Positions 43,838-64,000 of a stretch of 64,000 bases of DNA are shown one piece after another; within the stretch, counting starts at the first letter, position 1; each line of letters opens with the position of its first letter. The stretch spans positions 1 through 64,000 of the forward strand of contig DYJD01000022.1 of assembly GCA_020723325.1 (NCBI GenBank), written 5' to 3'. Position numbers and translations under genes: made by a program. The stretch comes from Desulfosudis oleivorans. GTDB lineage: Bacteria > Desulfobacterota > Desulfobacteria > Desulfobacterales > SURF-7. Below the pieces are notes generated by a model, which was not told the DNA's origin, made no database searches, and saw only the letters and a list, made by a program, of their open reading frames with translations.

Positions 43838-46800
43838 ATGCCCGGCATCGGACATACCATGAATATCGCCCGATCGGCCCTGTCGGCCCAGCAGTACGGG
43901 CTGAATGTGGCCGGTCACAACATCGCCAATGTCAACACCCCTAGTTTCAGCCGGCAGATGCTGGGGCTCACCACCAGCATTCCTATCCTGTACGGCGGCC
44001 TGCTGTTCGGCAGCGGCGTGTCATCGGAGGAAATCCGGCAGGTGAGCAACCAGATGCTGGAAAACCGTCTCATCGGCCAGCAATCGGATCTGGCCAAATT
44101 TGAGGGGGCGGAAACCTATGCCAGCGTCATTGAGGGCTATTTCAACATCAATTCGGAAAGCAGCATCAGCAATCTCATGTCCGACTTCTGGAATGCCTGG
44201 CAGGATCTGGCCAACAATCCCACCGGTTTCACGGAAAGGGGGATCGTGGTGGAGCAGGGCCAGCTCATCGTGGAACGTCTGAACACCATGAACAGCGATC
44301 TCACCAAAATGGAGGAGACGCTCACCAAGGAAATCGAGGCCCAGGTGGCGGAGGTCAACACCATTACCTCCCAAATCGCGGCCATCAACCAGGAAGTGGT
44401 GCGCATGCAGATCACAGGTTCGGCCAACGACCAGCGCGACAAACGCAATGCCCTGCTCACGGACCTGGCCGAACATATCAATATCCAGATGTACGAACAA
44501 CCCGACGGGGCCGTGAATGTCACCACCGCCGGCGGTTTCGGTTTGGTCAACGGCGTGGACAGCTACAGTCTCACCATGGTGCAGGGCCGGGTGAGCTGGC
44601 AGGGTTCCTATGGCGCCGACGTGGACATCAACGGCAAGATCAGCGGCGGCCGGATCGGCGGCTTGCTGGAAATCCGGGATGAAGTGGTGGCCAAATACCG
44701 CACGGAACTGGACATGCTCACCAATGAGATGGTCTGGGCCGTGAATTATCAGCACAGCCAGGGCGCGGGCATGAATTATTTCGACGTGCCGGTGACCGGC
44801 ACTTTCAAAACCGGCAACAGCGGCTTGCTGGATACATTGAATTTCGGCTCCAAAATCGATTACGACAAGGATTTCAAGATGTGGATCAGGGACGACAGTG
44901 CGGCCGTGCCGTCTTTCGACTCTTCTACAGTGGATATGGGCATTTCCGACGCCGTCATCACCAGTTGGACCGGGGCCGCGCCCGAAGCCGAGGAATTCAA
45001 ATATGTCTTTACCGTGATCGACGGCGGCGGCGTGGAAGTGGACGGCAATATCGCTCTAAGCGACGGTGCCACCCTGGGGGTGGTACGAACCGGCCCGGAT
45101 GCCGGGACGGCCCTGAACAATGCTATCGCCAATCAAACCATTTCCGTGTTCGGCGGCGGCTACGGCACCCAGACCATTTCCGTGCGCGACGGCGGCGATG
45201 CGGAACGTTCGGCCGCCGCCATTGCCGCGGCCCTGAACGATCTGAACGGGGTCACGGCCCAGGCTTTTGAAAATTCGGCAGTTATCGATATCAACGGACT
45301 GCTGCCGCCGGCGGTGAGCAGCGCCGATCCCAACGACCTCATCCGCTTCACTTTGAGTTCCGCCGGCAACAGCGCCCCTGTCTCTTTCCGGGTGGGGGAT
45401 TTTGATTATGAGACCCGGGCCAATTTCCAGCAGGCCCTGAACGACGCCCTGGTGCTGGTGAACAATGCCGGCAACAACCTGACGGTGGAATACAGCGGCA
45501 ATACCGCGCGAGTCACCAGCCGCAGCGGCGAGAATATCGGCCTGGCCGATTTCGATGTCCAGGACCTGGCCGTGGCCACCCTGGATAATTTCCAGAATCT
45601 GGGCGTCAATACCGTGGTGGATGTGAGCAACTTCACCAATTTCGCCAATGGCGAGAGTGTCGATCTATCGATCACAACCGCCCAGGGCAGCGTTACATTT
45701 ACCCATGCCATCACCGATGCCACCAACCAGGTCACCCTGGCCACGGATTTTGAAAATACCCTGATCGCCAACGGCGCGGCCTTGAACGCCATGGGCATCA
45801 CCTGGGCCCGGGTGGGCGGCGTGGTGACCCTGACCGGTGACCCTTCGGCCGGGTTTGTCGATTTCACCGCCCTCACGGCCGGACCAGGCGGGAACGAATC
45901 CTTTGACATTGCCGCGGCCGCCGGCACCAGCGCCTATCCGGCCACGGGCAACAACACCTTGCTGTTCAACGGCATTGGTGATCTGGAACGCTATGCCGGC
46001 AACAACACCGTGACCTTTACCATCAACGGCACGGACAACATCACCGTGGACCTGCGCCGGGTGGACACTACCGATGCCGCGGCCGTGGCCGCCGCCTTTT
46101 ACCGCGGGCTGGATACAAACCTGACCAATGCCTATGTGACCCTGAACGGCACGTCCGTGAGCATCACGGCCACCGACGAAAGCGCTGCGGATTTCACCTT
46201 CACCAACGGCGCGGAGACCGTGGGGGTGAACGGCAGTTTTGATGTGGCGATTCCCGGCGGGGTCCTGACTTCGGCGGACAACACCTTCACCCTGGATACG
46301 GTGGATACCGTAGGCTATACCAGCGTGGGGAACATCGATACCCTGCTGTTCGACAACGTGACCCTCACGGAAAGCGGCGGCGCCGGCAACGACAGCGCTG
46401 TGAAGACCGGCACCCTCACCATCATCCTGGAGCCGGGCATGGATATTTTGTCCAATGTGGCCGGCGGCGCCGGCGGGATTTTCAACAGCGCGGCCGATAT
46501 CCCCCTGACCCTGAACAGCGCCGTGCTGACCCTGGGCGGTGACGGGGCCTACACCGGGTTTGACGCCAACAACCGCATCAGCTTTAACGTGGATGGCACC
46601 TTTGTCAGTTACATTGTGGGCGCGGCGGACGACACGGACATGGAATTCGCCACCGGCCTGGCCGCCTCCCTGAATGGGGTCCTGGATCCGAATCTCTATT
46701 CGGTCAGCCGCCACGGCGCCTTTGTTTCCATCCTGAAAAACGACGGAACCCCCATTGAATTGACCAATTTCAGCGATGACGGTTTCGGCGGCGGCAGTCC

Positions 46801-48346
46801 GGCCCGCTTGGAGGCCCCGGCCAACCGCCTGCTCATGGCCAACAATACGGCCGGCAATTTCACCTCTTCCCGCAATTTCGGGGACCAGGGGGTGATCCAG
46901 TGGGAAAAATTCACCCTGGGCGGCGTGAACACCGGCCAGAACGGCACCATTGTGATTTCCGACGGCGGCCCCTATGAAGTGGATGCGGGCGGGCTCTCCT
47001 TCACCATCAGCGAAGGCGACCTGGTGGCCGGCAACACCTTCACCCTGAACACCGATACCCTGGGCCGGGCCGCGCCCCTGGCCTTGCGGGCCCGGCAATA
47101 CGCCAACAGCGTCAACGACATGTATGTTTTCACCGTGGACCTTGACAGCGGCGGTGAAATCGGCAGCGACGACATCACCATCAATTGGACCAACCGCATC
47201 ACTTACGGGTCCTTCACCCTGGAAGGCAACACGCCGCCCCAGACCCCGGTGGTGGTGGATGTGGACGGCATGCGCCTCTTGTTCGACAGCGGCAATCTGT
47301 TCAGCGGGGACACCTTCACCATCGCCACGGACCACAACGGACTGCCCACGACCCATTTGCCAACGGACTGGCATTGGACCCTCGAGTCCTTTGCCGATCA
47401 ATTCAACCGCCAGACCCTGGGGGTCAAGGCGGATATCAATGACAACTACCTAACCTTCAATACAGATACGGGCGGACATGACATCGCCGACATTCGCTAC
47501 AGCGGTTCCGACGGATTTTGTGCCACCAACGTCACCATCGATGTGCGCAATTATGAAGTGTTGAACCGCGCCTGGCCCAATCTGCGGATCGAACGTAACG
47601 ACACCCTCTATGCGGGCACCGCCGGATGGGGCATCAGCGGTTTTACCAACCCGGGCTATGCGGTGGCGCTGGTACCCATGGACGGTTTCAACCTGGACAA
47701 CGGGTTCTGGGTGGAACTGGACGGAATGCGGGCCATCACCGTCAATTTCAACCAGCCCATATCCGCTAACGGGTCTTTGACCTTCAACATCGTGCCGGAC
47801 ACCGGGATCTACAATTTTGCTTTTTCCGATGACGAGGCGGCTGATTCCGGATTGAGCGCCGCCTTGGGGGTTAATACGTTTTTCACCGGAGATGACGCCA
47901 TGACCGTGGGCCTCAACAATGTGATCAAACAGAACAAGGGATATCTGGCTGCGGCGCGCATCGACGCCGATACCGGCACCATCAGTACCGGCGACAACAC
48001 CAACGCCTTGGCCATCGGCAATCTGGAACACCACACCCAGGATATGTCCCAGTGGAATTTTGAAAGCGGTACGGCGGCCCGGGCCAGTAATCTGAATGTC
48101 AGTCTGGGGGATTACCTGAATCTCATGGTGGGTTCCCTGGGCATCAAGGCCCAGAGCATCCAGCGCGGCCGGGAATTCAGCGAAGTCATGCTGGACCAGA
48201 TCAGCCAACTGCGGGACAGTGTCTCGGCGGTTTCCCTGGACGAGGAAATGATCAATGTCATGAAGTTTCAACATGCCTATACGGTGGCAGCCAAGCTGTT
48301 GACCGTATCGGACGAAATGTTGACCACCCTGGTAAATATTCGGTAA
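43838..48346 (+). CDS. flgK: Giant flagellar hook-associated protein 1 FlgK
   Basis: First hook-filament junction protein. At 1502 aa it is about two to three times the usual FlgK. The N-terminal 300 residues are normal (MNIARSALSAQQYGLNVAGH, NIANVNTPSFSRQ; helical D1 with EMVWAVNYQHSQGAGM), and the last ~110 are normal (SIQRGREFSEVMLDQISQLR, MINVMKFQHAYTVAAKLLTV). Between lies an insert of roughly 1,050 residues made of beta-rich Gly/Asn/Thr modules of about 90-110 residues, for example around FTLSSAGNSAPVSFRVGDFD, VDLSITTAQGSVTFTHAITD and ISFNVDGTFVSYIVGAADDT. Each reads strand, Asp-rich turn, helix (LNxxL), strand, then an N-F-x-D end. The frame is open throughout. Confidence 0.95.
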   Translation: MPGIGHTMNIARSALSAQQYGLNVAGHNIANVNTPSFSRQMLGLTTSIPILYGGLLFGSGVSSEEIRQVSNQMLENRLIGQQSDLAKFEGAETYASVIEGYFNINSESSISNLMSDFWNAWQDLANNPTGFTERGIVVEQGQLIVERLNTMNSDLTKMEETLTKEIEAQVAEVNTITSQIAAINQEVVRMQITGSANDQRDKRNALLTDLAEHINIQMYEQPDGAVNVTTAGGFGLVNGVDSYSLTMVQGRVSWQGSYGADVDINGKISGGRIGGLLEIRDEVVAKYRTELDMLTNEMVWAVNYQHSQGAGMNYFDVPVTGTFKTGNSGLLDTLNFGSKIDYDKDFKMWIRDDSAAVPSFDSSTVDMGISDAVITSWTGAAPEAEEFKYVFTVIDGGGVEVDGNIALSDGATLGVVRTGPDAGTALNNAIANQTISVFGGGYGTQTISVRDGGDAERSAAAIAAALNDLNGVTAQAFENSAVIDINGLLPPAVSSADPNDLIRFTLSSAGNSAPVSFRVGDFDYETRANFQQALNDALVLVNNAGNNLTVEYSGNTARVTSRSGENIGLADFDVQDLAVATLDNFQNLGVNTVVDVSNFTNFANGESVDLSITTAQGSVTFTHAITDATNQVTLATDFENTLIANGAALNAMGITWARVGGVVTLTGDPSAGFVDFTALTAGPGGNESFDIAAAAGTSAYPATGNNTLLFNGIGDLERYAGNNTVTFTINGTDNITVDLRRVDTTDAAAVAAAFYRGLDTNLTNAYVTLNGTSVSITATDESAADFTFTNGAETVGVNGSFDVAIPGGVLTSADNTFTLDTVDTVGYTSVGNIDTLLFDNVTLTESGGAGNDSAVKTGTLTIILEPGMDILSNVAGGAGGIFNSAADIPLTLNSAVLTLGGDGAYTGFDANNRISFNVDGTFVSYIVGAADDTDMEFATGLAASLNGVLDPNLYSVSRHGAFVSILKNDGTPIELTNFSDDGFGGGSPARLEAPANRLLMANNTAGNFTSSRNFGDQGVIQWEKFTLGGVNTGQNGTIVISDGGPYEVDAGGLSFTISEGDLVAGNTFTLNTDTLGRAAPLALRARQYANSVNDMYVFTVDLDSGGEIGSDDITINWTNRITYGSFTLEGNTPPQTPVVVDVDGMRLLFDSGNLFSGDTFTIATDHNGLPTTHLPTDWHWTLESFADQFNRQTLGVKADINDNYLTFNTDTGGHDIADIRYSGSDGFCATNVTIDVRNYEVLNRAWPNLRIERNDTLYAGTAGWGISGFTNPGYAVALVPMDGFNLDNGFWVELDGMRAITVNFNQPISANGSLTFNIVPDTGIYNFAFSDDEAADSGLSAALGVNTFFTGDDAMTVGLNNVIKQNKGYLAAARIDADTGTISTGDNTNALAIGNLEHHTQDMSQWNFESGTAARASNLNVSLGDYLNLMVGSLGIKAQSIQRGREFSEVMLDQISQLRDSVSAVSLDEEMINVMKFQHAYTVAAKLLTVSDEMLTTLVNIR

Positions 48347-48413: not shown

Positions 48414-51400
48414 ATGCGGATTACGAACAAGACCGTATTTGATTCCATGGAATTGCGGTTGCGCAATCTCACCCGCAATCTGAGCGACAGCAACCTGGTG
48501 GTGACCACCGGCAAGCAGATCAACCGGCTGTCGGACAACCCCACCGGTGTGTCCCAGGTGTTGAGCATCAAGGGCGAAATCAACAACATCACCCAGTATG
48601 ATAAAAACATGGATCTGGGGTTGAATTGGCTCACCGGCGGGGAGTCCAGTCTGTCCGGCGTGAACGAGCAGATTTTGAACATGAAGTTGCTCACCAACCA
48701 ATTGATCAATGCCGGCAGCAACGAGGCCCAGCGCAAGGACGCCATGGCACGGGTGGATGGGGTTCTGCGGCAGGTCCTGTCCATGGGCAATACGCAGATC
48801 AACAACAATTACATCTTTGCCGGCGGCAAAACCAAAATCGCCCCCCTGGCTTTTGACAATGACGCTGATCCGCAACGGGTTTTATACCAGGGGGATCATA
48901 CGCCTTTTGCCTTGAAAACGGAAAAGAGCGCCAATCTGGAGGTGGGCCGGGATGGGTCCACCGTGTTCTGGGAGGACACCATCCAGGTTGATCACACCAA
49001 CAACCGCATCGCCTTTCTGGAAGACAGGGGCCTGGGTCCCAATTCGGAACGGATCCTGACAGCAGTGATACCGGACGGCACGTATTCGGCTTCCAACCTG
49101 GCCCTGGCCGTTGCGAACGCCATGACCGCCGCTTCGGCCGCCTTTGGCCACGGCATTGTATATGATGCCAGCCATGACGCCCAAACCAGGAAATTCCAGA
49201 TCACACCGGACGGGTCGTCCTTTACCGGGGAATTGGATTTCCGGCTGCTGCTGGACCCCACCCGTCTGCCGCAAACGGCCAACATCAATACCGGCATCAG
49301 CGCCGGGATCAATATCAGCAGTATTCTTGCGGATGCCGGCAACGGTGTGGAAGCCGGCGACCAGGTGAGTTTTGAACTTACCGCCGGCGAGGAAAGCGCC
49401 ACGGTGGCTTTTACCGTGGATGCCAATAACGACACCACCCGGGCCAATTTTCTGGCAGCCTTGAACAGTACCATCGCCGGGATGGAGGGCGTGGATTTGA
49501 CGGTGGATTCCAGCCAATTGACCGCCGCCGGCAACCAAGTGGCCATCACCAGTCTGTCCGGCCAACGGATTTTTGCCGACAATCTGACCTTGACCAACAA
49601 TGCTGCCGGAACCTTTGGCGGCAACTATGCGGCCAATGGTTTCGGCTACAACGGCGGCACGACTACCGGTGATTTGATCCGCTTCAATCTGACCTTGGGA
49701 AGCACGGTTGTAGCCGGAGTTACCGTGGATGTGGACGCCATCGGCGATGCCGGGCCGGTGACCAATGCCTTGATCGCTGATGCCATTTCCCGCAATTTCA
49801 ACAGCGGGGTGGTTTTAAACAATGGTGAGAGTGTCCGTCTCAGCGACGGGGCCGGGCATCAGGTGACCATCACCCGCAACGGCAATGATTTTGATTTTGT
49901 CACCGACGGCGGACAGGCTTTTGCCATCACCAATTTCAGCGACAACAACGCCAGTGGTTTGGGGGTGGCCGCGGCCCTTTCCGTGGTGGCCGACGCCGGC
50001 ACCAGTCTGGCTTCCACCGGGGCCTCGGGCGGGGCTATATTGACATCCCCCCAGAGCGAAACCTTTGCACCCATCCCGGCGGTCCTGGATCCCCAGGCTT
50101 TTGATACCGGCGGCGGCAGCCCGCTTTTTAACGCCACCGTGACCGTGATTCATCCCGAAGCCCTGACCCGCTCCACGCCCACGCCGGCAGGATCATTGCC
50201 CCTGCGCCTGGTGTGGGGGGGAGGCGGCTGGATTGTGAAGAACAATCCGGGTTATGATCTCCAAACCATCATTCCGGGAACGGCCTCGGCTGTGGACCTG
50301 GATTTGGACAAGGACGGCAGCGCCGACATTGCGGTGCGTTTTGCCACGCCGGTTACCCGGGCCGATGATTTCATCGAATTTGATATCCTTAGCAATGCGG
50401 CCCAGAGCACCATCGGGGTGGACCTGGGGCTGGGTACCCAGGACCTGGACTATCGCGCCATCACCAGCGACAACCCGGTTACCCCCATCAACCGCATGGT
50501 CATCGACAACACCAACAACCGCATTGATTTTGAGGAAATCGACATCGCCGGCAACACCAGCGGCCCGCTCACCGCCACCATCCCGCCCGGGCCGGGGCCG
50601 GACGGTGAATATACGGACATGGACGCCCTCAGCGCCGCCATCAAGGCGGCCCTGGAGGCGGCTTCCACCACGGTGCCGGCCGTGACCTACACCGTGACCT
50701 ACGATGCGGATCAAAGCCGTTTCCGGATTCAAGGGGACGGGCCTTCCCTGGCCCAGGTGAATTTCCTGTGGCAGAGCGGCCCCAATGCGGATATCAACGC
50801 CGCGGACATCTTGGGCTTTTTTGCAACCGATGACAGTCAGATCATTCCGGTGAGCGACAATCCCGTGACCTTGTTCACCATCAGCAACAGCAACAACCAC
50901 ATCGATTTTGAGGAGGTGGTGGCCGGGGTGACAACCCCCTTAAGCGTGACCCTGACCAACGGGGCGTATACTACCCCGGCGGCCTTGGCCCTGGATATTG
51001 AAACCCAAATGGAGGCGGCCTCGTTGGCCTTGGGCAATAGTGTAAATTATACTGTCGGTTACAATGCGGTGACCCAGCGCTTCACCATCGCCGATGCCGG
51101 CGCCACCTTGAATGAGCTGCATCTTTTATGGAATAGCGGTGCTAATTCAGGCACCAGCGCCGCCGCCATGCTCGGTTATGACAATGCGGACAATGCGGCC
51201 GGCAGCATGGGCGGCGATCTCCTGGCCAATGGCTGGGAAAACGGCAACACCATCAGCATGGATATCCGCGTCGGCAGCAGCATCGTGACCTTCACCCATG
51301 CGGTAAACACCGCAACGGATACCAATACATCCATCCTGGCCGATCTCCGGGATCAGCTCACGGCCGCCTTCGGCAATGTCGGCATCTTCACCCTGAACGG

Positions 51401-52691
51401 CAACAACATTGATTTCACCTTGCAAAACGCCTCCCTGAACATTTCCAATTTCACGGATTCGGGCGGGGCCAATGCCCAGTTGGCCTTGAATAGCATATCC
51501 GGCACGATCCTGCCGCCACCCGGGGGGGGCATGGTTGCCAATGCGGCTACGGCCGCCACCTTCTATGCCGGAGACGATGACGCGGCCCTGGGCGTGATTT
51601 CCCACACCGCTGATCAACAGGCGGTCTTGATTACCATCGGAAGCAACAACAACCGCATTGATTTTGCCGAATATGATTTGTACGGCAATTCCCTGGGGGA
51701 ACGCACCGCCGTGATCCCCAGCGGGGCCTATGCGGATCTTACGGTTCTGTCCCAGGCCATTGAAGATGCCATGGAAGCCCAATCCGGCCTGACGCCGCCT
51801 GTGGACTACAGTGTATCCTACGACGGGGCCAACCAGCGCTTTATTATCAGCGGCGTAGGCGCCAATCTGAGCGAGCTGCGCCTGCTCTGGGGCACCGGCA
51901 GTCATCGAACCGGCAGTGCCGCTGCCACCTTGGGGTTTAATGCCACGGATGACATCATGAACATCTCGGACAGTGATGAACCTGTGGTGCACATCACCAT
52001 TGACGACACCAACAACCGCATTGATTTCCGCGAGATCAGGAACCAGGCCAGTACGTTGGGGGTTTGCGAGCTGACCGCCATCATTCCCAGCGGCGAATAC
52101 CGCAACATGGCGGAATTGGCCGCGGCCATTCAAAACGCCATGAGCGGCGAGTCGGCCAATTTCGGCAACGGCATCACCTACATGGTTTCCTATGATGTGG
52201 ACAATAAAACGTTCACCATTAAGGAGAGCGGCACAACCCTGGACCGCCTGGAACTCTTATGGTCCAGCGGCCGGCATGTCGCCAGCAGCATCGGCGCCAC
52301 CCTGGGATTTAATCCGGAAGATGACACCGCGGAAGTCATGGAAAGCAGCGGGGAGGTGGAGTGGGGCATCTTCAACACCCTTTTCGCCCTGAAAGGCTAT
52401 CTGGAAGCCAATGACGTGGACGGCCTGGAGCGTTCCCTGACCCGTTTGGAAGCACATTTCAACTACACCGAGGCCTTGATCGCCGATACCGGTGTGAAGA
52501 GCAACCGCATCGATGTGAAAAAGAAAATCAACAGCGACCTGAACCTGAGCCTCACCGAACGCCGTAGCAATATCGAGGATGCCGACATCATCGCGGCGGT
52601 GATGGCCTTGCAAAAGGATCAGTTGGCCTACCAGGCAGCCTTGTCCTCTTCAGCCAAGATCATGAAATTGAGCCTGGTTGATTTTCTGTAA
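48414..52691 (+). CDS. flgL: Giant flagellar hook-associated protein 3 FlgL
   Basis: Second hook-filament junction protein, 1425 aa against a usual 300-500. The N-terminal 180 residues are ordinary (MRITNKTVFDSMELRLRNLT, GKQINRLSDNPTGVSQVLSI), as are the last ~110 (LERSLTRLEAHFNYTEALIA, MALQKDQLAYQAALSSSAKI). The insert holds five copies of a ~110-residue module starting near residues 189, 692, 816, 1071 and 1190. Each opens with T/SNNRIDFxE, continues to IPxGxY, then an amphipathic helix, a Y-x-V-x-Y strand, LxxLxLLWxSG and LGFxxxDD. Other modules (around QVSFELTAGEESATVAFTVD and ISMDIRVGSSIVTFTHAVNT) resemble those of FlgK. It is 68 bases from flgK and clearly co-expressed. Confidence 0.94.
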   Translation: MRITNKTVFDSMELRLRNLTRNLSDSNLVVTTGKQINRLSDNPTGVSQVLSIKGEINNITQYDKNMDLGLNWLTGGESSLSGVNEQILNMKLLTNQLINAGSNEAQRKDAMARVDGVLRQVLSMGNTQINNNYIFAGGKTKIAPLAFDNDADPQRVLYQGDHTPFALKTEKSANLEVGRDGSTVFWEDTIQVDHTNNRIAFLEDRGLGPNSERILTAVIPDGTYSASNLALAVANAMTAASAAFGHGIVYDASHDAQTRKFQITPDGSSFTGELDFRLLLDPTRLPQTANINTGISAGINISSILADAGNGVEAGDQVSFELTAGEESATVAFTVDANNDTTRANFLAALNSTIAGMEGVDLTVDSSQLTAAGNQVAITSLSGQRIFADNLTLTNNAAGTFGGNYAANGFGYNGGTTTGDLIRFNLTLGSTVVAGVTVDVDAIGDAGPVTNALIADAISRNFNSGVVLNNGESVRLSDGAGHQVTITRNGNDFDFVTDGGQAFAITNFSDNNASGLGVAAALSVVADAGTSLASTGASGGAILTSPQSETFAPIPAVLDPQAFDTGGGSPLFNATVTVIHPEALTRSTPTPAGSLPLRLVWGGGGWIVKNNPGYDLQTIIPGTASAVDLDLDKDGSADIAVRFATPVTRADDFIEFDILSNAAQSTIGVDLGLGTQDLDYRAITSDNPVTPINRMVIDNTNNRIDFEEIDIAGNTSGPLTATIPPGPGPDGEYTDMDALSAAIKAALEAASTTVPAVTYTVTYDADQSRFRIQGDGPSLAQVNFLWQSGPNADINAADILGFFATDDSQIIPVSDNPVTLFTISNSNNHIDFEEVVAGVTTPLSVTLTNGAYTTPAALALDIETQMEAASLALGNSVNYTVGYNAVTQRFTIADAGATLNELHLLWNSGANSGTSAAAMLGYDNADNAAGSMGGDLLANGWENGNTISMDIRVGSSIVTFTHAVNTATDTNTSILADLRDQLTAAFGNVGIFTLNGNNIDFTLQNASLNISNFTDSGGANAQLALNSISGTILPPPGGGMVANAATAATFYAGDDDAALGVISHTADQQAVLITIGSNNNRIDFAEYDLYGNSLGERTAVIPSGAYADLTVLSQAIEDAMEAQSGLTPPVDYSVSYDGANQRFIISGVGANLSELRLLWGTGSHRTGSAAATLGFNATDDIMNISDSDEPVVHITIDDTNNRIDFREIRNQASTLGVCELTAIIPSGEYRNMAELAAAIQNAMSGESANFGNGITYMVSYDVDNKTFTIKESGTTLDRLELLWSSGRHVASSIGATLGFNPEDDTAEVMESSGEVEWGIFNTLFALKGYLEANDVDGLERSLTRLEAHFNYTEALIADTGVKSNRIDVKKKINSDLNLSLTERRSNIEDADIIAAVMALQKDQLAYQAALSSSAKIMKLSLVDFL

Positions 52692-54021: not shown

Positions 54022-54420
54022 TTATTCCTTATTGCTCACAAAGAACGGCGCACCGTTCCGACCAGAGCTTCCATAGCCTGCCAAGGCTTGCCGGCCCCTG
54101 CGCAGTTGTTTCAATTGTTCACTCAGTTGGAGGCGCCGGCCGGTCAGGGCGGCTGTGAGGGCCTGATCCTTTTCCAGGATGGCGGCGATGCGCTCCAGAC
54201 AAATACCGGCGTTGGGCCGGTCATTTGTCTGGTCCAGGTCAAGGCTTTTCAGAAAAGCGTTCAAGTGTTGTTTGAGTTCCTCAAAAGCCTGGTTGCGCTC
54301 GAAATTGGCGCGGGCAAAACCGCCCAGTCCGGTTTTTTCCATGGAAACATGGAAATGCGCGGCCTGGATGGCTTCAAAGCGCTCAAAGGCCAGATTCAGT
54401 TCCGGGGGAATCCCATGCAT
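54022..54420 (-). CDS. FliT-like small flagellar protein
   Basis: 132-residue helical protein with coiled-coil-like segments (FARANFERNQAFEELKQHLN, AILEKDQALTAALTGRRLQL SEQL). Position between fliS and flaG, size and helical make-up suggest a FliT-type chaperone for FliD, but the sequence signature is weak, so the name is inferred. Confidence 0.55.
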   Translation of the reverse strand: MHGIPPELNLAFERFEAIQAAHFHVSMEKTGLGGFARANFERNQAFEELKQHLNAFLKSLDLDQTNDRPNAGICLERIAAILEKDQALTAALTGRRLQLSEQLKQLRRGRQALAGYGSSGRNGAPFFVSNKE

Positions 54421-54444: not shown

Positions 54445-54963
54445 TCAAATTGAAATCGATTTAAACCCATAGGCGGCTGCTCCGCCATTACCGTATGGGT
54501 TCAGGCGCCGCTCGATTTTTGCCGGCGTGGGTTCCTGAGGTTGTCCATTAGCCGCAGCGACAATGTTGAGCTGGGCACTATCAGTGGGTTTGGCCTTCAA
54601 GACCGTACTTACCCAGATTTTACGCAATTCACCGATATAGGTGTCAGTTTGATTCAGGATGTTGATATCGTTGTTGATGGATACCTTGGGCAGTTCCGCC
54701 AGGATGGCGGCATATAGGCCCCGTAAAAAGGCAACGGCCTCATCATTGATTTTGGTGTCCAGACAGGCATTGAGCTCGGCAATGATGGCAATGGCACGGC
54801 CCAGATGTTCGCCGCGCATTTGAATGTTTTTTTGTTCAATACCGCTGCGGGCCAGGCGGATATGCTTAAGGGCGCCGTCATAGAGCATGAGAATGAGTTG
54901 CTTGGGATCCATGCCTTCGTAATGGGAAGTGAGATAGGTGTCATATTTGTTGGCGACGGTCAT
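54445..54963 (-). CDS. fliS: Flagellin export chaperone FliS
   Basis: 172 residues. The FliS core (1-125) has NKYDTYLTSHYEGMDPKQLI, LMLYDGALKHIRLARSGIEQ and the later NIQMRGEHLGRAIAIIAELN. It binds the flagellin C-terminal D0 and prevents polymerisation in the cytoplasm. A C-terminal extension of about 40 residues is Pro/Asn-rich. GGAGG precedes the ATG and fliD ends 15 bases upstream. Confidence 0.95.
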   Translation of the reverse strand: MTVANKYDTYLTSHYEGMDPKQLILMLYDGALKHIRLARSGIEQKNIQMRGEHLGRAIAIIAELNACLDTKINDEAVAFLRGLYAAILAELPKVSINNDINILNQTDTYIGELRKIWVSTVLKAKPTDSAQLNIVAAANGQPQEPTPAKIERRLNPYGNGGAAAYGFKSISI

Positions 54964-54977
54964 GCAAAACCTCCTTG

Positions 54978-56684
54978 TTATTTCTTTTGCTGGGCTGATT
55001 GGATGGAATCAAACACGGTGGTTAAATATTCGGACTCGGACTTCATGCGGCCGATGTATTTATCCAGCTCGACAAATCTGCGGCTGAGTTCATCATAGCG
55101 ACGGTCCAGACGATCAGTGGCTTCCCCAATATCCTGCTCCATGCGCGCAATCTGCTGCTCGCCATAGGTTTTCTCCGTGCCCATCAAGCCGTTCAAGCCG
55201 GTAAGCTCCCGCAGGCCGTCGTTCATCAGATCGGCAAAGCCTTTGGTTTGGGTTTCTTCATTACCCAGGAAAAAGGCTGAAACCGCTTCCGGATCCGTAT
55301 TCAGGGCCTGATTCAAGGTCGCTTCATTAAGGGTGAGGCTGCCGTCCCGATTCAGCTCCAGGCCGATATCAAACAGGCTTTTGATGCCCACATTATTGGG
55401 CTGAATGGCGCCTACCAGGGATTTTAACTCATTGGGCAGGCTTTTGACGGAATAGGCATCGGCCAAAATGCCCCATTCCTTGGTGTCAGTATCGTAAGCA
55501 CTGTCAGCTTTGATGGACTGCACCAATTCGTTCAGGCTTTTGACCATGTCCGTGATTTCGGTTTTGATGGTAGAAGTATCGGCCGTGACGACCACATCGG
55601 CGGTGCCTGTTTTTTTCAACGTAAGGGAAACCCCTTGGATGATATCCGTGAGATTGCTGTTGGTCTGGCGTTGATACAGAATGCCGTTCACACTGACCTC
55701 GGCGTTCAATGAGGCTCCCCCGGCCCCTTGCACTTCCGTCATCTGGATGCCGCCCACGGTGATGCGGTTGTCTTCACCGCTGTTGTCGGCGGTCAGCACC
55801 AGTCGGTAGGGTGCGGTGGCGCTGCCGTCATTGATGATGGCGGCGGTGACGCCGGGGTTGTTATCATCGGCATTGATCTGCTCGGCCAGTTCGTTAAAGG
55901 TGGTGTCGGCAGCCACGGCTACGGCCACTGGATCATCGTCGCCCAGGCCGATGCTGAAGGTGACATCCGGCGCTCTTAGAGAGAAGGATTCGGGTTGCTC
56001 GGCGATCATGACACGATTGGTTTCACTGGTGCCGGGTTGGGTGGAGGCGATGCGCAGATGGTATTTGCCGTCGGTGCCGGTAAAAGTGGAAGCGGTGACA
56101 TAGGTACCGCCGGCGCCGTTATTGTTTTGACTGTCCGTGTTGATGGCATTGACCACCTGATTCAGAGTCATCCCGGCCGTGAAATCCACGGCAATGGCCC
56201 GGAAACCGGTTCCGGTGCCGTAGGTAACCGTGAGTCTGTCATTGGCGGTTATCACCGGGGTTGTGGCCGCATTTGCCCAGCCGCTGGTGGACTCCTGAAC
56301 CGTGGGGATATAGACCGAGGTCTCCGCATCGGCCACCCCTGCTGTTTGAAAGGAGCTGCGCGAAGCCAGGCGTTTTACATCAATGGACGTGGCATGCAAT
56401 TCCGCGCCTGGAAAAACCTGGGCAGAGGCGATTTCCTCATCAGACACCGCGGCGGAACGGGTGATGAAATTGGATTGCAGGGAAAGGGTCAGGGCATTGG
56501 ATTTGATCGACAGCAGTTTGGCATTGACCTCGTCGAATTTGGCCAGGCGCTTTTTTATGGTGGCGATTTCATTTTTCATCCCCGTAATCGGGGCTTCATC
56601 GATTTTCCTGAAATCTTCCAGCATTTTTTGGAGGTCGAAACCCGAGCCGACTCCCAGGCTGGTAACTTTGCCGACAGATGCCAT
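54978..56684 (-). CDS. fliD: Flagellar filament cap protein FliD
   Basis: 568 residues from the ATG at 56684, a usual size, unlike its filament neighbours. N-terminal MASVGKVTSLGVGSGFDLQK; a flagellin-IN hook module around VAVAADTTFNELAEQINADD; the C-terminal DNA region encodes MEQDIGEATDRLDRRYDELS and RFVELDKYIGRMKSESEYL, the coiled-coil D0/D1. Caps the filament tip and promotes flagellin insertion. A frame extends upstream but lacks a good start. A sigma28-type promoter lies at 56834-56860. Confidence 0.95.
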   Translation of the reverse strand: MASVGKVTSLGVGSGFDLQKMLEDFRKIDEAPITGMKNEIATIKKRLAKFDEVNAKLLSIKSNALTLSLQSNFITRSAAVSDEEIASAQVFPGAELHATSIDVKRLASRSSFQTAGVADAETSVYIPTVQESTSGWANAATTPVITANDRLTVTYGTGTGFRAIAVDFTAGMTLNQVVNAINTDSQNNNGAGGTYVTASTFTGTDGKYHLRIASTQPGTSETNRVMIAEQPESFSLRAPDVTFSIGLGDDDPVAVAVAADTTFNELAEQINADDNNPGVTAAIINDGSATAPYRLVLTADNSGEDNRITVGGIQMTEVQGAGGASLNAEVSVNGILYQRQTNSNLTDIIQGVSLTLKKTGTADVVVTADTSTIKTEITDMVKSLNELVQSIKADSAYDTDTKEWGILADAYSVKSLPNELKSLVGAIQPNNVGIKSLFDIGLELNRDGSLTLNEATLNQALNTDPEAVSAFFLGNEETQTKGFADLMNDGLRELTGLNGLMGTEKTYGEQQIARMEQDIGEATDRLDRRYDELSRRFVELDKYIGRMKSESEYLTTVFDSIQSAQQKK

Positions 56685-56833
56685 AGACGTATTCCTTTGG
56701 TTGTCAGGGTGAGTGTGATTGTAACGCTGCTTCTTTAAAATCAGGATGCAAAACCGAAGCCAAAAAGGCGGATACTCACCCAAGGGATGCTGAAAACGGG
56801 CACATGCACCGTTTTACAATCCACTTTGTCATT

Positions 56834-57040: not shown

Positions 57041-60000
57041 CTACTTCAGCAGGCTCAGGACGTTCTGGGCACTGGCATTGGCTTGGGCCAAGGCGAAGGT
57101 GCTGGCCTGGGCCAGGATCTGCATCCGGGTGAAGGTGGAGGATTCCTCGGCAAAGTCCACCTCGCGGATGGACGATTCGGCCGAGCGCACATTCACCTGG
57201 GTGGTGGACACGTTGGAGATGGTGGATACCAACTGGTTCTGCACAGAACCGAGGTCGGACCGCACCTTGTCCAGATCCTTCAAGGCCGCATCAGCGATGG
57301 CGATGGTCTTCTGGGCCTCGTCCTGGGAGAGCACGCTCACCGTGGACAGCCGGTTCAGCTCGGTGTCGGACACATCCGTGGTTACCGCGCCGGAAGTCAG
57401 GTTGGCGGAAAGGACGCTGCCCGCGGCCAGGACCGAACCTTCCTGCAGGCTCATCTCCACATCAATGGCGTTGACGCCCGCCGTGGTGATGTTGTCTGTC
57501 AGCACGGTGCCGGTGGTGTAGGTCTTGCCGTCGGAGGCGACAATGTCGTTGGTCAGATAGGTGCCCTCGGCAATGATGCTGCCGGCTGCCAAGGAAGACC
57601 CGGCTGCCAGGTTCATGCCGCCGTTGCCGCTGACGGTTTCGGCGTTCTGCAGGGTGACCGCGCCGCCCAGGGTGGAGCCGTTCAACAAGGCTGATCCGCT
57701 GGCGATGGTGGAGCCGGCCGCCAGGTTGAAATTGTTCACCAGGGTCAGGTCACGGCCCAGGGTGGCATCGCCGCCGATGACCGATCCGGCCAGCAGCACC
57801 GTGTTGGCGCCGTTGGAGATCACCGAACCGGTGGACAGGGTCATGTCGCCCACAGCGGTCATGGTGCCGGCCAAGGTCATGCCGGACAGGAGGGTGGCAT
57901 CTCCGCCGATGACGGAACCGGAGCGCAGCACGCTGCCGTTGGCGATGGTGGAGCCGCCGCCCAGGGTCATGCCGCTGTCCAGGATCATGGCGGATAGCAA
58001 GGTGATGCTGGTGCCCACGGTGGAGCCGGAAATCAGCACGCTGCCGGAGCCGAAGGATGAGCCGGTGATCAGGGTGTAGCCGGATTGGACGCCGACAGAG
58101 ACGCCGGAGATCAAGGTCACATCCGTGCCGAAGGTGGCATTGGTGCCGCCGCCGTTGTCGCCGTTGCCCACCACTGAGCCGCTGCCGAAGGCCGAGCCGG
58201 CCAGCAAGGTAAAGCCGGACTGACCGCCCACGGCCACCGAGGCCAGCAGGGTGGCGCTGGTGCCCAGGGTGGCGTTGGCTGAAGCGCCGTTATCGCCGTT
58301 GCCGATGACCGAACCGCTGCCCAGCACCGAACCGGAAAGCATGGTGAAGCCGGACTGGCCGCCCACGGCCACTGACGCGATCAGGGTGACGTCGGTGCCG
58401 AAGGTGGCGTCGCTGTTGCCGCCGCCGACGCCGATGACCGAGCCGCTGCCGAACTTGGAGCCGGAGATCAAGTTGAAACCGGAGTCCGTATTGAGCACCG
58501 CCCCGGAAAGCAGGGTGGTGTCGCCGCCCACGGTGGCGCCGGAGGCCAGGATGGTGCCGCGGCCCAGGGTGGACCCGGCCCCGATCACCAGGGATTCGCC
58601 GGCCGCGATGGTGACGGTGGAGGTGGTGGTGATGTTGGCGCCGATGGAGGAGCCGGAGGCCAGACTGGTGCCGTTCAGGAGCCGGCTGCCGCCTTGGGCC
58701 GTGAGGGTGGCGGTGATGGTCTGGTTGCCGTCCAGGGTGTAGGCGCCGCTGAGGGTGGTGCCGGCCAGCTTGAGGCCGGACTCGGCGGTGAGCATATTCT
58801 GGGCCAGGACCGTGCCGGACCCTATGGTGGAGCCGCTGGCCAGGCTGGTGCCGATGGCGATGGTGCTGGTGCCGATGGTGGCGTTGGTGTCGGAGATGAC
58901 GGTGGTGTACTGCAGGGCGGAATTGGACACAAAAATGGTGCCGGCCGCCAGGGTGGTGCCGCTTTGTACCGTGGTGGCCGCGGTGGTGGCGGTGGCGTCG
59001 ATGAGCAGGCGCACATCGTCAAGACCGGCGCTGAAGGTGGTGCCGGTGGCAAAGACCGTACCAGCGGCCAGAGTGTCGCCGGAGGTGATGATGCTGGTGT
59101 TGCCGGTGGCGCCGGTGGCGGCGATGGTGACGGCCACGCCGGACATGCCGCTGGTCAGGGCCGTGCCGGAATTCAGCACCGTGCCGGCCGCCATGGTGTC
59201 GCCGGAGGTCAGGACCGTGCGGGAACCCATTTCACCCGTGGCATACAGGGTGATGGCCACGCCGGACATGCCGCTTGTGAGCACGGTGCCGGAGACCAAT
59301 ACCGTGCCGGCGGCCAGGGTGTCGCCGGAGGTGAGGACGCTGTCGGCGCCGGTGGCGCCGGTGGCGGCGATGGTGACGGCCACGCCGGAAAGACCGCTCT
59401 GGAGCACGGTTCCGGAATTAAGCACGGTCCCTGCGGCCAGGGAGGTGCCGCTGACCAGGGAGCTGGCGCCGGTGGTGGCGTTGGTGGCGGCGATGGTGGC
59501 ATTGTCCGTGAGGTCTTCACTGGCGGAAAGGCTCAGAATGCTGCCCACCTGCAAAGTGGAATTGCCTTCCACCGTGCTGTTGCCCACCGTGTTGGCGATT
59601 TCTTGAACCCGGGCGTCGCCGGCAAAGCCCGTATTGGCCGTGAGCACCGTGCCGGCACCCAGGATGGAGTTCTGGGCCAGGGAGGAACCGCTGACAATGG
59701 TGGAACTCTGGGTGGTGTTGATGTTGCTGGTAAAGGCCACGCCGGACATGGTTTGATCCACGGTCCAGCCGGCCCCCAGAATGGAGTTGTCGGCCAGGGT
59801 GGACCCGGCGGCGATGGTGGAAGCCTGGCTGGTTTCGGTATTGCCGGCGGTTTCCAGGCTGGTGGTCAGGGCCACCACACCGCCGTCGCCAATGTCCGTC
59901 ACCTGGATGGCGGCCGAGCCTTCCTGGTTCAGAGTGACATATCCCAGGGTGGACATGTTGGACCCGCGGAAGATGGCGTCGTTGCCCAGACCGCTGCCGA

Positions 60001-60952
60001 TGGCACTGCCATAGGTGACCTGCAGGGCGCGTTGGTCCGTGGAGGTCAGAGTCATGTATCCGGCGTTGTCCACGCTGGCCACAATGCCGTGCTGGGAGGT
60101 CTTCTGGTTGATGGCTTTGACCAAGGCGCCGTTGGCGTCGTTGGCCACCACGTCCAGTTGACCGATGTTGATGCCGTTGATGGCGAAATCCGCATCGGTG
60201 GTGCCGGCGGCGATGTTGAGCACGGTCTTGCTCTCAACCTTGGCCGAGGCGGAAATACCGAGGACGTCGCTCAGTTTGTTGATGGTGTCGGCCACTGCAC
60301 CCATGCTGTTTTCACGGGAGTTGCTGTACTGCACATTGGTGGACTCCACCACAAAACTCTTATTCTGCAGGTTGCTGTAAATGGCCAGTTCCACGGAGCC
60401 GGGCTGGTCGCCGGTGATGGACAGTCTGCCGGTGGTGACATGGCCGATTTTGGTGGATTGGGAGGAAGCGATGGAAATACTGACGGTTTCACCGGAATAG
60501 GCGCCGATTTGGAATTTCTTGTTGGTGAAATTACCGTTCAAGAGTTTCTGGTTGTTGAACGCGGTGGTCTTGGCGATGGCGTCCAGTTCTTCCAACAGCT
60601 TGGTGATGTCTGCCTGGATGGCCTTCCGGGAGTCGGTGGTTTGGCCGTCCTGGGCTGCCTGAATGGCTTTTTGCTTAACGGTGTTGACGATGTTGATGGA
60701 TTCTTCCAGGGCCGCATCGGCGGTTTGCACGATGTTGATTCCGTCGTTGGCGTTGCGGATGGCCTGGCCGAGTCCAAGGGCCTGGGATTTGAGACTGTCG
60801 GCGATGGCCATGCCGGAAGCGTCATCGGCTGCCTTGTTGATGCGCAGACCGGAAGAGAGCTTCTCCAGGGAGGAGGACAGCAGTCCATCGTTTTTAGTCA
60901 GATTCTTGTGGGCGTTCAACGCCGATACGTTGGTGTTGATTCGTAATGCCAT
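57041..60952 (-). CDS. fliC: Giant flagellin with hexapeptide-repeat insert
   Basis: Filament subunit of 1303 aa, against 300-500 usually. The N-terminal D0/D1 (1-180; MALRINTNVSALNAHKNLTK, SGLRINKAADDASGMAIADS) and C-terminal D1/D0 (about 1200-1303; VDFAEESSTFTRMQILAQAS, ANASAQNVLSLLK) are ordinary. Residues about 180-370 hold D2-like sequence with a flagellin-IN motif (DFAINGINIGQLDVVANDAN). Residues about 370-1195 are almost entirely hexapeptide-type repeats, for example LGRGTILASGATVGGDTTLL, with a hydrophobic residue every sixth position and Gly/Ser/Thr between, as in beta-solenoids. Tandem DNA repeats of 135 and 123 bases lie inside. The frame is open. Confidence 0.95.
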   Translation of the reverse strand: MALRINTNVSALNAHKNLTKNDGLLSSSLEKLSSGLRINKAADDASGMAIADSLKSQALGLGQAIRNANDGINIVQTADAALEESINIVNTVKQKAIQAAQDGQTTDSRKAIQADITKLLEELDAIAKTTAFNNQKLLNGNFTNKKFQIGAYSGETVSISIASSQSTKIGHVTTGRLSITGDQPGSVELAIYSNLQNKSFVVESTNVQYSNSRENSMGAVADTINKLSDVLGISASAKVESKTVLNIAAGTTDADFAINGINIGQLDVVANDANGALVKAINQKTSQHGIVASVDNAGYMTLTSTDQRALQVTYGSAIGSGLGNDAIFRGSNMSTLGYVTLNQEGSAAIQVTDIGDGGVVALTTSLETAGNTETSQASTIAAGSTLADNSILGAGWTVDQTMSGVAFTSNINTTQSSTIVSGSSLAQNSILGAGTVLTANTGFAGDARVQEIANTVGNSTVEGNSTLQVGSILSLSASEDLTDNATIAATNATTGASSLVSGTSLAAGTVLNSGTVLQSGLSGVAVTIAATGATGADSVLTSGDTLAAGTVLVSGTVLTSGMSGVAITLYATGEMGSRTVLTSGDTMAAGTVLNSGTALTSGMSGVAVTIAATGATGNTSIITSGDTLAAGTVFATGTTFSAGLDDVRLLIDATATTAATTVQSGTTLAAGTIFVSNSALQYTTVISDTNATIGTSTIAIGTSLASGSTIGSGTVLAQNMLTAESGLKLAGTTLSGAYTLDGNQTITATLTAQGGSRLLNGTSLASGSSIGANITTTSTVTIAAGESLVIGAGSTLGRGTILASGATVGGDTTLLSGAVLNTDSGFNLISGSKFGSGSVIGVGGGNSDATFGTDVTLIASVAVGGQSGFTMLSGSVLGSGSVIGNGDNGASANATLGTSATLLASVAVGGQSGFTLLAGSAFGSGSVVGNGDNGGGTNATFGTDVTLISGVSVGVQSGYTLITGSSFGSGSVLISGSTVGTSITLLSAMILDSGMTLGGGSTIANGSVLRSGSVIGGDATLLSGMTLAGTMTAVGDMTLSTGSVISNGANTVLLAGSVIGGDATLGRDLTLVNNFNLAAGSTIASGSALLNGSTLGGAVTLQNAETVSGNGGMNLAAGSSLAAGSIIAEGTYLTNDIVASDGKTYTTGTVLTDNITTAGVNAIDVEMSLQEGSVLAAGSVLSANLTSGAVTTDVSDTELNRLSTVSVLSQDEAQKTIAIADAALKDLDKVRSDLGSVQNQLVSTISNVSTTQVNVRSAESSIREVDFAEESSTFTRMQILAQASTFALAQANASAQNVLSLLK
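58083..58487 (-). repeat. 135-bp in-frame tandem repeat in fliC
   Basis: Three copies with register marks at 58083, 58218 and 58353 (GACTGGCCGCCCACGGCCAC-type sequence), exactly 135 bases (45 codons) apart. Each encodes a VAVGGQSGFT..SGS..GSGSVIGNGDNG unit. Confidence 0.8.
59010..59400 (-). repeat. 123-bp in-frame tandem repeat in fliC
   Basis: At least three copies, with the shared GGCCACGCC mark at about 59131, 59254 and 59377, exactly 123 bases (41 codons) apart. Each encodes a TLAAGTVL.SGT.L.SGMSGVAVTI unit. A weaker fourth copy precedes them. Confidence 0.8.
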
Positions 60953-61513: not shown

Positions 61514-64000
61514 ATGGAATTTCATCATCCCGATTACTACGAAAAGAATCTCACCTTGTTGCAGCAATATCATCCCCAGGTCTGGGAGCTACTCACCACC
61601 GCCCGGCCCCAACCCATGGGTGAACTTTGCCGATCTCGCGGGGGCAAACCCAATCTGCGGCTGGCGCTGAAAAACGGAGAAACCGTCCTGCTGCATAATG
61701 CCGATGATCCGGAAGCCGAGGTCCGGGATTTTTTGAAAATGGTTCCGGAAGATTCCACCGGTTTTGTAACCTTGATGGGTATGGGCCTGGGTTACACGCC
61801 CCTGGGCTTGCTTCAAAACCGGCCGGATATCCGCCATCTGGTGGTTTTTGATTTGGAGCCCGGCATTTTTCAACAGGCCCTGCATGTGAATGATTTATCC
61901 CCGATCCTTGCCGATCCCCGGCTGGTATTGAATATCGGACCAGGGCCGGATGTGGATGCAATTATGGCGCCCCTGGCCCGGGCCCTGCAATTGGAATCCA
62001 TTCACAGCCTCAGTCATCTCCCGTCTTTTAAATTCAATGAAGAAGGGTATCAGGGCCTCAGCGAAAAAGTGTTTGCCTGCGTGAATGAATACAATGTGGG
62101 GGCTGCCACGGTTTTCGCCTTCGGCCGTTCTTTTCTGGCCAATCGTTTCGGTCATTTGACTTCCATGCACCACCATTATTTGCTGGAGGGCTTGCAGGGG
62201 GCTTTTGCCGATATCCCGGCCATTCTGGTGGCCGGCGGGCCCTCCCTGGACAAAAACATCCATCTGCTGGCAGAGGCCAAAAACAAAGCCGTGATCATCG
62301 CCGTGGACACGGTATTACCGGCCCTGCTGTCCCGGGGAATAGCCCCGGATTTTGTGACTTCCATTGATCCCGAGGAATTCACATTTGAAAAATATGCGGA
62401 AGTCATTCCCCAGATTGAGAAAACGGCCCTCATCTGCACGGCCTGGGTAACCCCTAAAGTTCCCAAGACCTTTCCCAACGGCAGGGTGTTTTGGACATTT
62501 GCCGGCAACGGTGTGGAATCCTGGATGAATTCATTGATGGGCGGGAGATTGCTGACCACCGGGGCCAAAACCGTGGCCCACCTGAGTTTCACCGCGGCGG
62601 TCATTCTCGGTTGTTCACCCATTGTGTTTGTCGGGCAGGACCTGGCTTTTTCCGGGGAAAAGGACCATGCTTCCGAGACCGTGCTTTCCAATCAGGATAT
62701 GCTGGACGACTTGTTCAAATCCGGCAAGGATTTGATCTGGGTGGAAGGCAATCTTCAGGAAAAGGTGGCCACCAACCGGTCCTTTTACAGCATGATCAAA
62801 TCCTTTGAAAAGATGATCGCCGGAACCCCCGGCCGCTATATCAATGCCACGGAAGGCGGCGCCCGTTTGGCAGGGACGGAGATCCGGACACTGCGTGAAG
62901 TCATGGATGCCCATTGCGGTAGGGCCTATGATATTGAAGAACGCATCGATGCTTTTTTCAGCCGGACGCCGCGAATGGCCAGTGAAGTCCTGCTGCGGGA
63001 ATTCCGGGAAGTGAAAAAGCAGATCAGAAACCAGCACGGCTATATCCGCAAATCGGATAAAATCAGCCGGCAATTGCGCAGCCGCATCGCCGCCTTGCGT
63101 AAAAACGGCCTTGCCTATCGCTCCGCATCGGCTTTGCCCAAGCCGGTTCAAAAAATGTTGAATGAGATCGATGGTTTTCATCAGAAAATGGACAAGGCCT
63201 ATGGTCTTTGGCACGTTTTGGAGGAAATCACCCTGGAGGGTCTGCGTCACAGCGAGCGCCTGCGGCATTCCATCGAACTCCTGAAGAACAAGCCCGAGCG
63301 CTATCTGGACTGGATAGAAAAGAATCTGGACCGGTTGGATATCATCAACCGCGTGCGGCGGGAGGTGCTGGGGGAATTTGAAACCCACCTTGAAAGGACC
63401 CTGGATTATCACGCCGAGGAGTCCGAACTGAAACAGCAACTGAGAGTAAAGGAGACCGGAATAGACGAATATCTCAACCTGATGCGATTATATGATGAAT
63501 GCGGCCAAATCACTATGCTGGACCAAGTGCTTGCGGAAGTGGGCCAAGCAAACCAGGATTCTCCGGAAATCCAGTATTATCAGGGGTGCGTGGCTGCCCA
63601 TCGTTTCGAGCAAGCCCGGGCGGAAGTACATTTCAACTCCGCCATCCGGCTAGATCCCGACTTTTCCCAACGGGTCTCGGCCTTTGGCCATCAAATGGCG
63701 GAACAGTATTATCGCTACACCCTCCGGCTGAAAATGGACGGTTACGACATCCGCAAAATGCTTCTGAGAGGTGCGCGTTATTGCAGCACCCACAAGGAAT
63801 TGAATCTGGAAATGAACGAGCTCGTTACCAAGGACCTGACAGCCGTCGGCGCTGCTTTGGAAGCAGGGGAATTTGAAAAAGCAGGTTCCAGGATCGCCCC
63901 CTGGGTCCGGGAGCTGGCTGAAAATCCCAAGCTTTCGGAATGTCTGCGACCTGCCCCCATGGGGGAATTGCTGCGCCATCAAGGACAGTTACTGATTCAA
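61514..64000 (+). CDS. maf: Maf-type motility accessory / flagellin glycosylation protein (partial, 3' end outside)
   Basis: Open for 829 codons without a stop and cut by the window end. Starts MEFHHPDYYEKNLTLLQQYH after AGGAG. The core is the DUF115 / 6-hydroxymethylpterin-pyrophosphokinase-like domain (about residues 210-400): ILVAGGPSLDKNIHLLAEAK, then FVTSIDPEEFTFEKY and ILGCSPIVFVGQDLAFSGEK. An N-terminal Maf-like domain (about 30-190) precedes it. A long helical region with a TPR-like stretch at about 680-715 follows. Maf proteins transfer nonulosonic acids such as pseudaminic or legionaminic acid to flagellin. Its place next to the flagellin gene supports glycosylation of the filament. 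Confidence 0.88.
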   Translation, partial: MEFHHPDYYEKNLTLLQQYHPQVWELLTTARPQPMGELCRSRGGKPNLRLALKNGETVLLHNADDPEAEVRDFLKMVPEDSTGFVTLMGMGLGYTPLGLLQNRPDIRHLVVFDLEPGIFQQALHVNDLSPILADPRLVLNIGPGPDVDAIMAPLARALQLESIHSLSHLPSFKFNEEGYQGLSEKVFACVNEYNVGAATVFAFGRSFLANRFGHLTSMHHHYLLEGLQGAFADIPAILVAGGPSLDKNIHLLAEAKNKAVIIAVDTVLPALLSRGIAPDFVTSIDPEEFTFEKYAEVIPQIEKTALICTAWVTPKVPKTFPNGRVFWTFAGNGVESWMNSLMGGRLLTTGAKTVAHLSFTAAVILGCSPIVFVGQDLAFSGEKDHASETVLSNQDMLDDLFKSGKDLIWVEGNLQEKVATNRSFYSMIKSFEKMIAGTPGRYINATEGGARLAGTEIRTLREVMDAHCGRAYDIEERIDAFFSRTPRMASEVLLREFREVKKQIRNQHGYIRKSDKISRQLRSRIAALRKNGLAYRSASALPKPVQKMLNEIDGFHQKMDKAYGLWHVLEEITLEGLRHSERLRHSIELLKNKPERYLDWIEKNLDRLDIINRVRREVLGEFETHLERTLDYHAEESELKQQLRVKETGIDEYLNLMRLYDECGQITMLDQVLAEVGQANQDSPEIQYYQGCVAAHRFEQARAEVHFNSAIRLDPDFSQRVSAFGHQMAEQYYRYTLRLKMDGYDIRKMLLRGARYCSTHKELNLEMNELVTKDLTAVGAALEAGEFEKAGSRIAPWVRELAENPKLSECLRPAPMGELLRHQGQLLIQ

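Follow-up and report, generated by a model that had tools for sequence, protein, structure and literature searches.

The window analyzed here, a stretch of 64,000 nucleotides of Desulfosudis oleivorans DNA, encodes a giant flagellin whose central region is built of hexapeptide repeats. We consider it probable that this protein forms the filament and that its outer domain is extended by a beta-solenoid of about 825 residues, most likely of the left-handed type, on the filament surface. The gene and its parts are laid out as follows.

57041..60952, minus strand: giant flagellin, 1303 aa, an open frame with Pfam Flagellin_N and Flagellin_C
60524..60940, minus strand: D0/D1 N-terminal helical region, Flagellin_N, residues 5-143 (Pfam scan)
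59858..60427, minus strand: D2-like outer region, residues 176-365, alignable to solenoid-free relatives and conserved in register
57383..59857, minus strand: hexapeptide-repeat insert, residues 366-1190, about 124-128 hexads (period, Pfam, motif count and hexad model)
59039..59442, minus strand: 123-bp tandem repeats (41 aa, six hexads plus a 5-residue loop)
58109..58424, minus strand: 135-bp tandem repeats (45 aa, three hexads plus a 7-residue loop plus three hexads plus 2 residues)
57302..57691, minus strand: C-terminal end of the solenoid, conserved (alignment A3), the family signature
57047..57301, minus strand: D1/D0 C-terminal helical region, Flagellin_C, residues 1218-1302 (Pfam scan)

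The product of this gene is a bacterial flagellin. The protein begins with MALRINTN, ends in the usual C-terminal helices, and was matched in the Pfam scan by both Flagellin_N (150.9 bits compared to a cut-off of 26.6, E=2.9e-44) and Flagellin_C (93.1 bits compared to a cut-off of 23, E=1.4e-26). The top NCBIfam match was flagellin B (PRK13588, E 8.8e-136), a model that we take to be of the Campylobacterota type; this match, like all 24 listed, was under cut-off. At 1303 aa, the protein exceeds the 1000 aa of giant flagellins, a class that also forms thick filaments. A search upstream of the gene for a sigma-28-like promoter pattern gave no match. The central part of a flagellin is surface-exposed, and here that part is rich in Ser and Thr, as the first-pass annotation had described it (243 of 825 residues), with 10 Lys or Arg, 42 Asp or Glu, and no His, Pro, or Cys.

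Comparison with relatives showed that the solenoid is an insertion and that the protein belongs to a family of solenoid flagellins that extends across many genera. Searching the genome collection at the protein level yielded 16 relatives. Of these, 14 have the solenoid; their assemblies bear Desulfo-, Deltaproteobacteria, or Proteobacteria titles, and contig ends truncate two of them. The 12 complete inserts span 330-948 aa and have a best period of 5.9-6.25. The two Campylobacterota relatives, L015 and L016, are solenoid-free proteins of 508-509 aa that align to the window flagellin over both ends and the D2-like region, with 28-29 residues where the window flagellin has its insert of about 825. 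Against distant relatives, residues 1081-1140 at the C-terminal end of the insert were kept in register, the N-terminal end less so, and matches to the middle were mostly out of register. Using the conserved C-terminal end of the solenoid as a query with a threshold of E<=1e-8, we obtained matches in 11 of 297 genomes of the phylum and 15 of 146 genomes of the order, with the genome of the window counted in both. The matches in G301 and G429 were rejected as flagellins given their PKD domains and signal-like start, which leaves 13 of the 146; among the other genomes sampled, flagellins with the signature were thus present in 12 of 145 of the order and 10 of 296 of the phylum. For these other genomes of the order, a match was assigned to a flagellin by a Flagellin_N match in a frame of equal length on the same contig, and for L073 and L076 the assignment was additionally confirmed by direct comparison. 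Several genomes have two solenoid-signature flagellins each, and a Flagellin_N match at E<=1e-8 was found in 74 of the 146 genomes.

Giant flagellin frames of 1153-1235 aa that lack the solenoid signature were observed in G186 and G304. Other classes of giant insert thus seem to exist in the order, and the solenoid signature does not seem to be the sole route to large size. Two long proteins, L074:1792-6000(+) and L075:2301-6863(+), have repeated PKD-like units and a signal-like N-terminus, and the flagellin solenoid model matched a short run of hexapeptides in each; the Pfam scan covered L074 only.

The insert has a hexad period. The first-pass annotation had placed it at 57370-59840 (residues 371-1195), and the repeats do run nearly throughout residues ~366-1190. 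A six-residue period had been named beforehand as the test, and among the periods of 2-40 examined, the strongest for large hydrophobic residues in residues 366-1195 was 6.10, with a power of 14.4, a value that none of 300 shuffles approached more closely than 10.2. Taken in 120-residue windows with starts at residues 351-1101, the sequence had a best period of 5.8 to 6.45, a spread to be expected if short loops are added between hexads. Trained on eight distant relatives (L005-L008, L010, L012-L014) and then applied to the window flagellin, a hexad-plus-loop model placed 124 hexads covering 90% of the insert. Its score was +231, compared to -115 for the highest-scoring of 200 shuffles, -32 for the insert read in reverse, and -70 for residues 1-365; the closest four relatives (L001-L004) behaved in the same way. 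The commonest residues of the hexad are [S/T/A/M]-[T/V/I]-[L/I/V/F]-[A/G/T]-[A/S/G]-[G/D]. Each of the two DNA tandem units contains a number of hexads divisible by three, which would correspond to two 18-residue coils, and relative L004 is longer at both tandem-repeat sites by ~82 and ~46 alignment columns, or about two and about one more units. Residue identity peaked at a lag of six hexads only and not at three, the length of one coil, so that 18 residues per coil is a suggestion rather than a direct demonstration. Of 187 runs of hexads between loops, 75 had a hexad count divisible by three, barely above one third.

By sequence motif and by the Hexapep cut-off, the tandem hexads fit the hexapeptide/left-handed beta-helix superfamily. 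The classic hexapeptide rule, [STAV]x[LIV][GAED]xx, matched the insert 52 times compared to 33 in shuffles, while its mirror motif matched 9 times, so the likeness has a direction. Pfam Hexapep scored 43.9 bits on the whole giant flagellin, compared to a cut-off of 27, as a sum of weak stretches. In single scans of two relatives, it stayed below cut-off (22.3 bits for L008 and 18.6 bits for G414), and it was found at E<=0.001 in 6 of the 10 A2 proteins, two of the 10 being insert-free. Inside the insert, the Pfam matches better than E 0.1 were Hexapep and LbH_EIF2B only, the latter under cut-off. In a search of the same genome for single hexapeptide stretches (23 stretches), none of the giant flagellin was among those listed at E<=0.001. 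With a hidden Markov model based on 12 hexapeptide stretches from elsewhere in that genome's proteins, the real insert beat every scored shuffle in 10 of 13 flagellins and reversed inserts reached at most 1.8 bits, whereas the inserts of L004, L005, and L006 were not above their shuffles; the margin for the window insert was narrow, at 13.1 bits compared to 12.9 for the best of 758 scored shuffles out of 1000, the remaining ones falling below the reporting level of the program. Weak sequence matches to the PDB numbered 26 (best E 0.012), and about 22 of these are presumably hexapeptide-type proteins, judging by name; two are adenosylhomocysteinases.

The hexapeptide rule and the Hexapep match are common to the insert and to LpxA, GlmU, serine acetyltransferase, and gamma carbonic anhydrase. 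The arrays of these enzymes are several times shorter than the window insert, which further differs from LpxA/GlmU-type proteins in its filament-protein setting, in having no histidine, and in matching no enzyme family above cut-off except the Hexapep repeat. Hexapeptide acyltransferases have a catalytic histidine, which is absent here, and we rejected an enzymatic insert given that no enzyme family besides the Hexapep repeat was above cut-off and that there is neither His nor Cys. Flagellinolysin, which carries a metalloprotease domain with zinc-binding histidines in its variable region, was also considered and rejected, since no peptidase family matched at E<=10 in Pfam and the insert has no His.

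AlphaFold-type prediction, proposed for the insert in the first-pass annotation, gave solenoid-like strands and fell short of a confident fold. The AlphaFold2 model of window residues 52-1251 (five sequences) had a mean pLDDT of 43.4 and contained two-residue strands every six residues over long stretches; that of relative L008 (816 aa, ten sequences) had a mean pLDDT of 56.8. In both models, portions of the solenoid contain strands spaced ~6 residues apart, at low confidence. For L008, the best fold matches were the Campylobacterota filaments of C. jejuni (6x80) and H. pylori (9ygu/9yh1), with E from 1e-22 to 2e-21. Residues 683-1046 of the window model (P0001 734-1097) aligned to EtpA, tailspikes, pertactin, Ag43, and TibA, which we take to be right-handed beta-helices. 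The Z scores of this low-confidence model were 14.6-21.4 in the best 50 listed, including EtpA at 21.4 (rmsd 5.3, 431 aligned), Ag43b at 16.7, and TibA at 15.5, and its Foldseek matches had E values of at least 0.07. No left-handed hexapeptide chains were among the Foldseek/VIA matches listed for the low-confidence models. The reading of the repeats as a hallmark of left-handed beta-helices held for the sequence rule; the handedness is less firm, as the low-confidence window model resembles right-handed helices.

We considered that the insert could instead be a right-handed parallel beta-helix of the autotransporter/adhesin type (Ag43, TibA, EtpA), with an otherwise equal role in an outer sheath. 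The fold alignments favor such a helix, which we regard as unlikely but credible. The aligned solenoid part of the model has a pLDDT of 36-66 by ten-residue blocks, mostly 48-66, from only five aligned sequences, and the resemblance comes from this low-confidence model only. Hexads make up most of the insert, its Pfam matches are of the hexapeptide kind, and neither AIDA/Ag43-type repeat families nor a pectate-lyase family matched in Pfam at E<=10. Furthermore, AlphaFold2 is reported, in the part of the source drawn on here, to predict unrealistic beta-solenoids for perfect repeats (PMC11795689). Given the low model confidence and this tendency of AlphaFold2, we used the structural matches of the models as hints only, and on sequence grounds lean toward a left-handed rather than a right-handed insert.

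The genes around the giant flagellin are arranged in the order flgK-flgL-csrA-fliW / flaG-(54022)-fliS-fliD-flagellin / maf. FlgK, FlgL, FliD, the flagellin, and Maf were named by Pfam and NCBIfam, and csrA, fliW, flaG, and fliS are presumed from gene order and look.

43838..48346, plus strand: FlgK hook-associated protein, 1502 aa, enlarged, no hexad signal (Pfam, NCBIfam)
48414..52691, plus strand: FlgL hook-filament junction protein, 1425 aa, enlarged, no hexad signal (Pfam, NCBIfam)
54445..54963, minus strand: FliS-like flagellin chaperone
54978..56783, minus strand: FliD filament cap, start codon uncertain (Pfam scan)
61514..64000, plus strand: Maf-type flagellin glycosyltransferase, running off the window (Pfam, MptE-like)

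Between the FliS-like and FlaG-like genes lies an uncharacterized 132-aa frame (54022-54420, minus strand), possibly an export chaperone; several related loci have a relative of it in the corresponding position.

The size of FlgL tracks the size of the flagellin in the order, a relation that is new here. The largest flagellin frame and the FlgL-like frame correlated in size with a rho of 0.86 across 33 genomes of the order, namely those of the 74 Flagellin_N genomes with both a strong (>=95 bits) and a weaker match. The weaker Flagellin_N match, or the largest if several, was taken as FlgL, whose identity was checked for few genomes; G036 and G381 were among the genomes left out, their weaker matches lying beyond the end of the listing, and for G000 and G343 the weaker match came from separate searches. 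The rho was 0.83 without the latter two (31 genomes), 0.91 with weaker matches of <=70 bits (26 genomes), 0.90 in solenoid genomes (11), 0.57 in the others (22), and 0.86 over 23 families, the averaging by family controlling only partly for kinship. In G328, the flagellin frame is 206 aa and may have been truncated by a contig end. In the part drawn on here, the study of giant flagellins closes with the question of whether the flagellum has other components of matching size (PMC6248924), and the relation between FlgL and flagellin size bears on that question given that FlgL is large here. The hexad model found no arrays in the middles of the window FlgL and FlgK (scores of -218 and -183, respectively). 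These two proteins can be aligned with each other over one stretch of 93 columns, with 37% identity, and a CBM-like family, PF14683, matched FlgK just under cut-off (24.6 compared to 27 bits). At E<=0.01, the solenoid-end model did not match the FliD of the window. It did match the FliD of G414 (L073:4123-6066(+), 647 aa, with FliD_N and FliD_C; E 7.2e-17), which carries a hexapeptide module of ~90 residues akin to the C-terminal end of the solenoid in the flagellin. Among the frames scanned, this FliD was the only solenoid-end match at E<=0.01 besides flagellins and two PKD proteins.

The genome also encodes a second flagellin of 277 aa outside the window (G000:C106:89290-90123; L021:9290-10123), which apparently consists of D0/D1 only. 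This protein, and the presence of a 287-338-aa Flagellin_N frame in several relatives, could mean that the shorter flagellin builds the bulk of the filament and that the giant flagellin is a minor or specialized subunit in an adhesive segment or sheath patch. We find this arrangement quite unlikely, given that the giant gene adjoins fliD and the fliS-like gene and that FlgL enlarges along with the giant flagellin. In addition, the single-contig genome G414 has two Flagellin_N matches only, the 816-aa solenoid flagellin and a 665-aa FlgL, and there the solenoid flagellin, in the absence of another, probably builds the filament. In G343 (84% complete) and G145, the sole other Flagellin_N match likewise lies in a frame of FlgL size, FlgL identity having been checked for G414.

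The Maf protein that the first-pass annotation had noted beside the flagellin is present in the window and in 11 of the 14 relatives' loci, in nine of them directly beside the flagellin and in L002 and L003 ~4 kb away, counting solenoid-flagellin loci only. There was none within the flanking DNA covered at L001 and L013, and a weak partial match only at L010. The window Maf is the only MptE-like match in its own genome at E<=0.001, and it is plausible that it glycosylates exposed Ser and Thr residues of the solenoid. A disordered Ser/Thr-rich brush, whose repeats merely host glycans, would fit the adjoining maf gene, the low mean pLDDT, and the 59% of Gly, Ala, Ser, and Thr in the insert, and is nevertheless very improbable given the regular aliphatic third position of 124-128 hexads, the lack of proline, and the direction specificity of the motif.

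Flagellin outer domains are varied, and those of EHEC H7, Achromobacter, and P. aeruginosa are globular, unlike a hexapeptide solenoid. In the portions of the sources used here, outer domains interact as a sheath affecting motility in the outer-domain-sheath flagella of EHEC H7 and Achromobacter (PMC8931119) and form a ridge affecting motility in the ridged filaments of P. aeruginosa (PMC10256154). The giant flagellins of Bermanella marisrubri and Oleibacter marinus, as described in parts of PMC6248924, resemble the window flagellin in exceeding 1000 aa and in their large central insert, and their filaments are at least 30 nm wide; Desulfotalea psychrophila is named among the giant-flagellin species. 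Their inserts consist of duplicated DE regions and a DX insert and are not described as hexapeptide repeats, and the words hexapeptide, solenoid, and helix are absent from the main text (PMC6248924). Our search of titles and abstract openings, with most subscription papers and bioRxiv preprints outside its scope, found no published hexapeptide-solenoid flagellin.

The three-dimensional fold, coil number, and sheath architecture that we infer for the insert are as follows. D0/D1 would polymerize as usual, and the solenoid would lie on the filament surface beyond the D2-like domain. Three hexads (18 residues) per coil is most likely, in which case the ~124-128 hexads would form ~41-43 coils and, at the 0.48 nm coil spacing of a beta-helix, a stack of ~20 nm. 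A flagellin runs out from the core and back, according to the part of PMC6248924 used here. A single outward rod is unlikely, since the chain must return to the core and the C-terminal end would otherwise sit ~20 nm from D1. The earlier picture of a thin rod projecting from each subunit is thus probably wrong, as both ends of the insert are expected to sit at D1/D2. The stack most likely either folds back once or more, with a reach of ~10 nm, or packs along and between neighboring subunits. Either arrangement would give a thick outer layer, in the form of a rigid, acidic sheath with few trypsin sites, in which exposed Ser and Thr are probably glycosylated by the neighboring Maf. The enlarged FlgK and FlgL would bridge the hook and the thick filament.

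Collectively, our findings suggest a filament whose solenoid layer likely serves either as a coat that is glycosylated or adhesive or as a stiff sheath suited to swimming through sediment or viscous surroundings. A far-reaching and doubtful extension of this model is that filaments are sheathed by ~20-nm hexapeptide solenoid hairpins, that the FliD cap has a matching solenoid end in at least G414, and that, with FlgK and FlgL enlarged, the whole distal axial structure is co-evolving. If the proposed filament is real, each filament would require the export pore to pass, and the filament cap to fold, a beta-solenoid of great length thousands of times.
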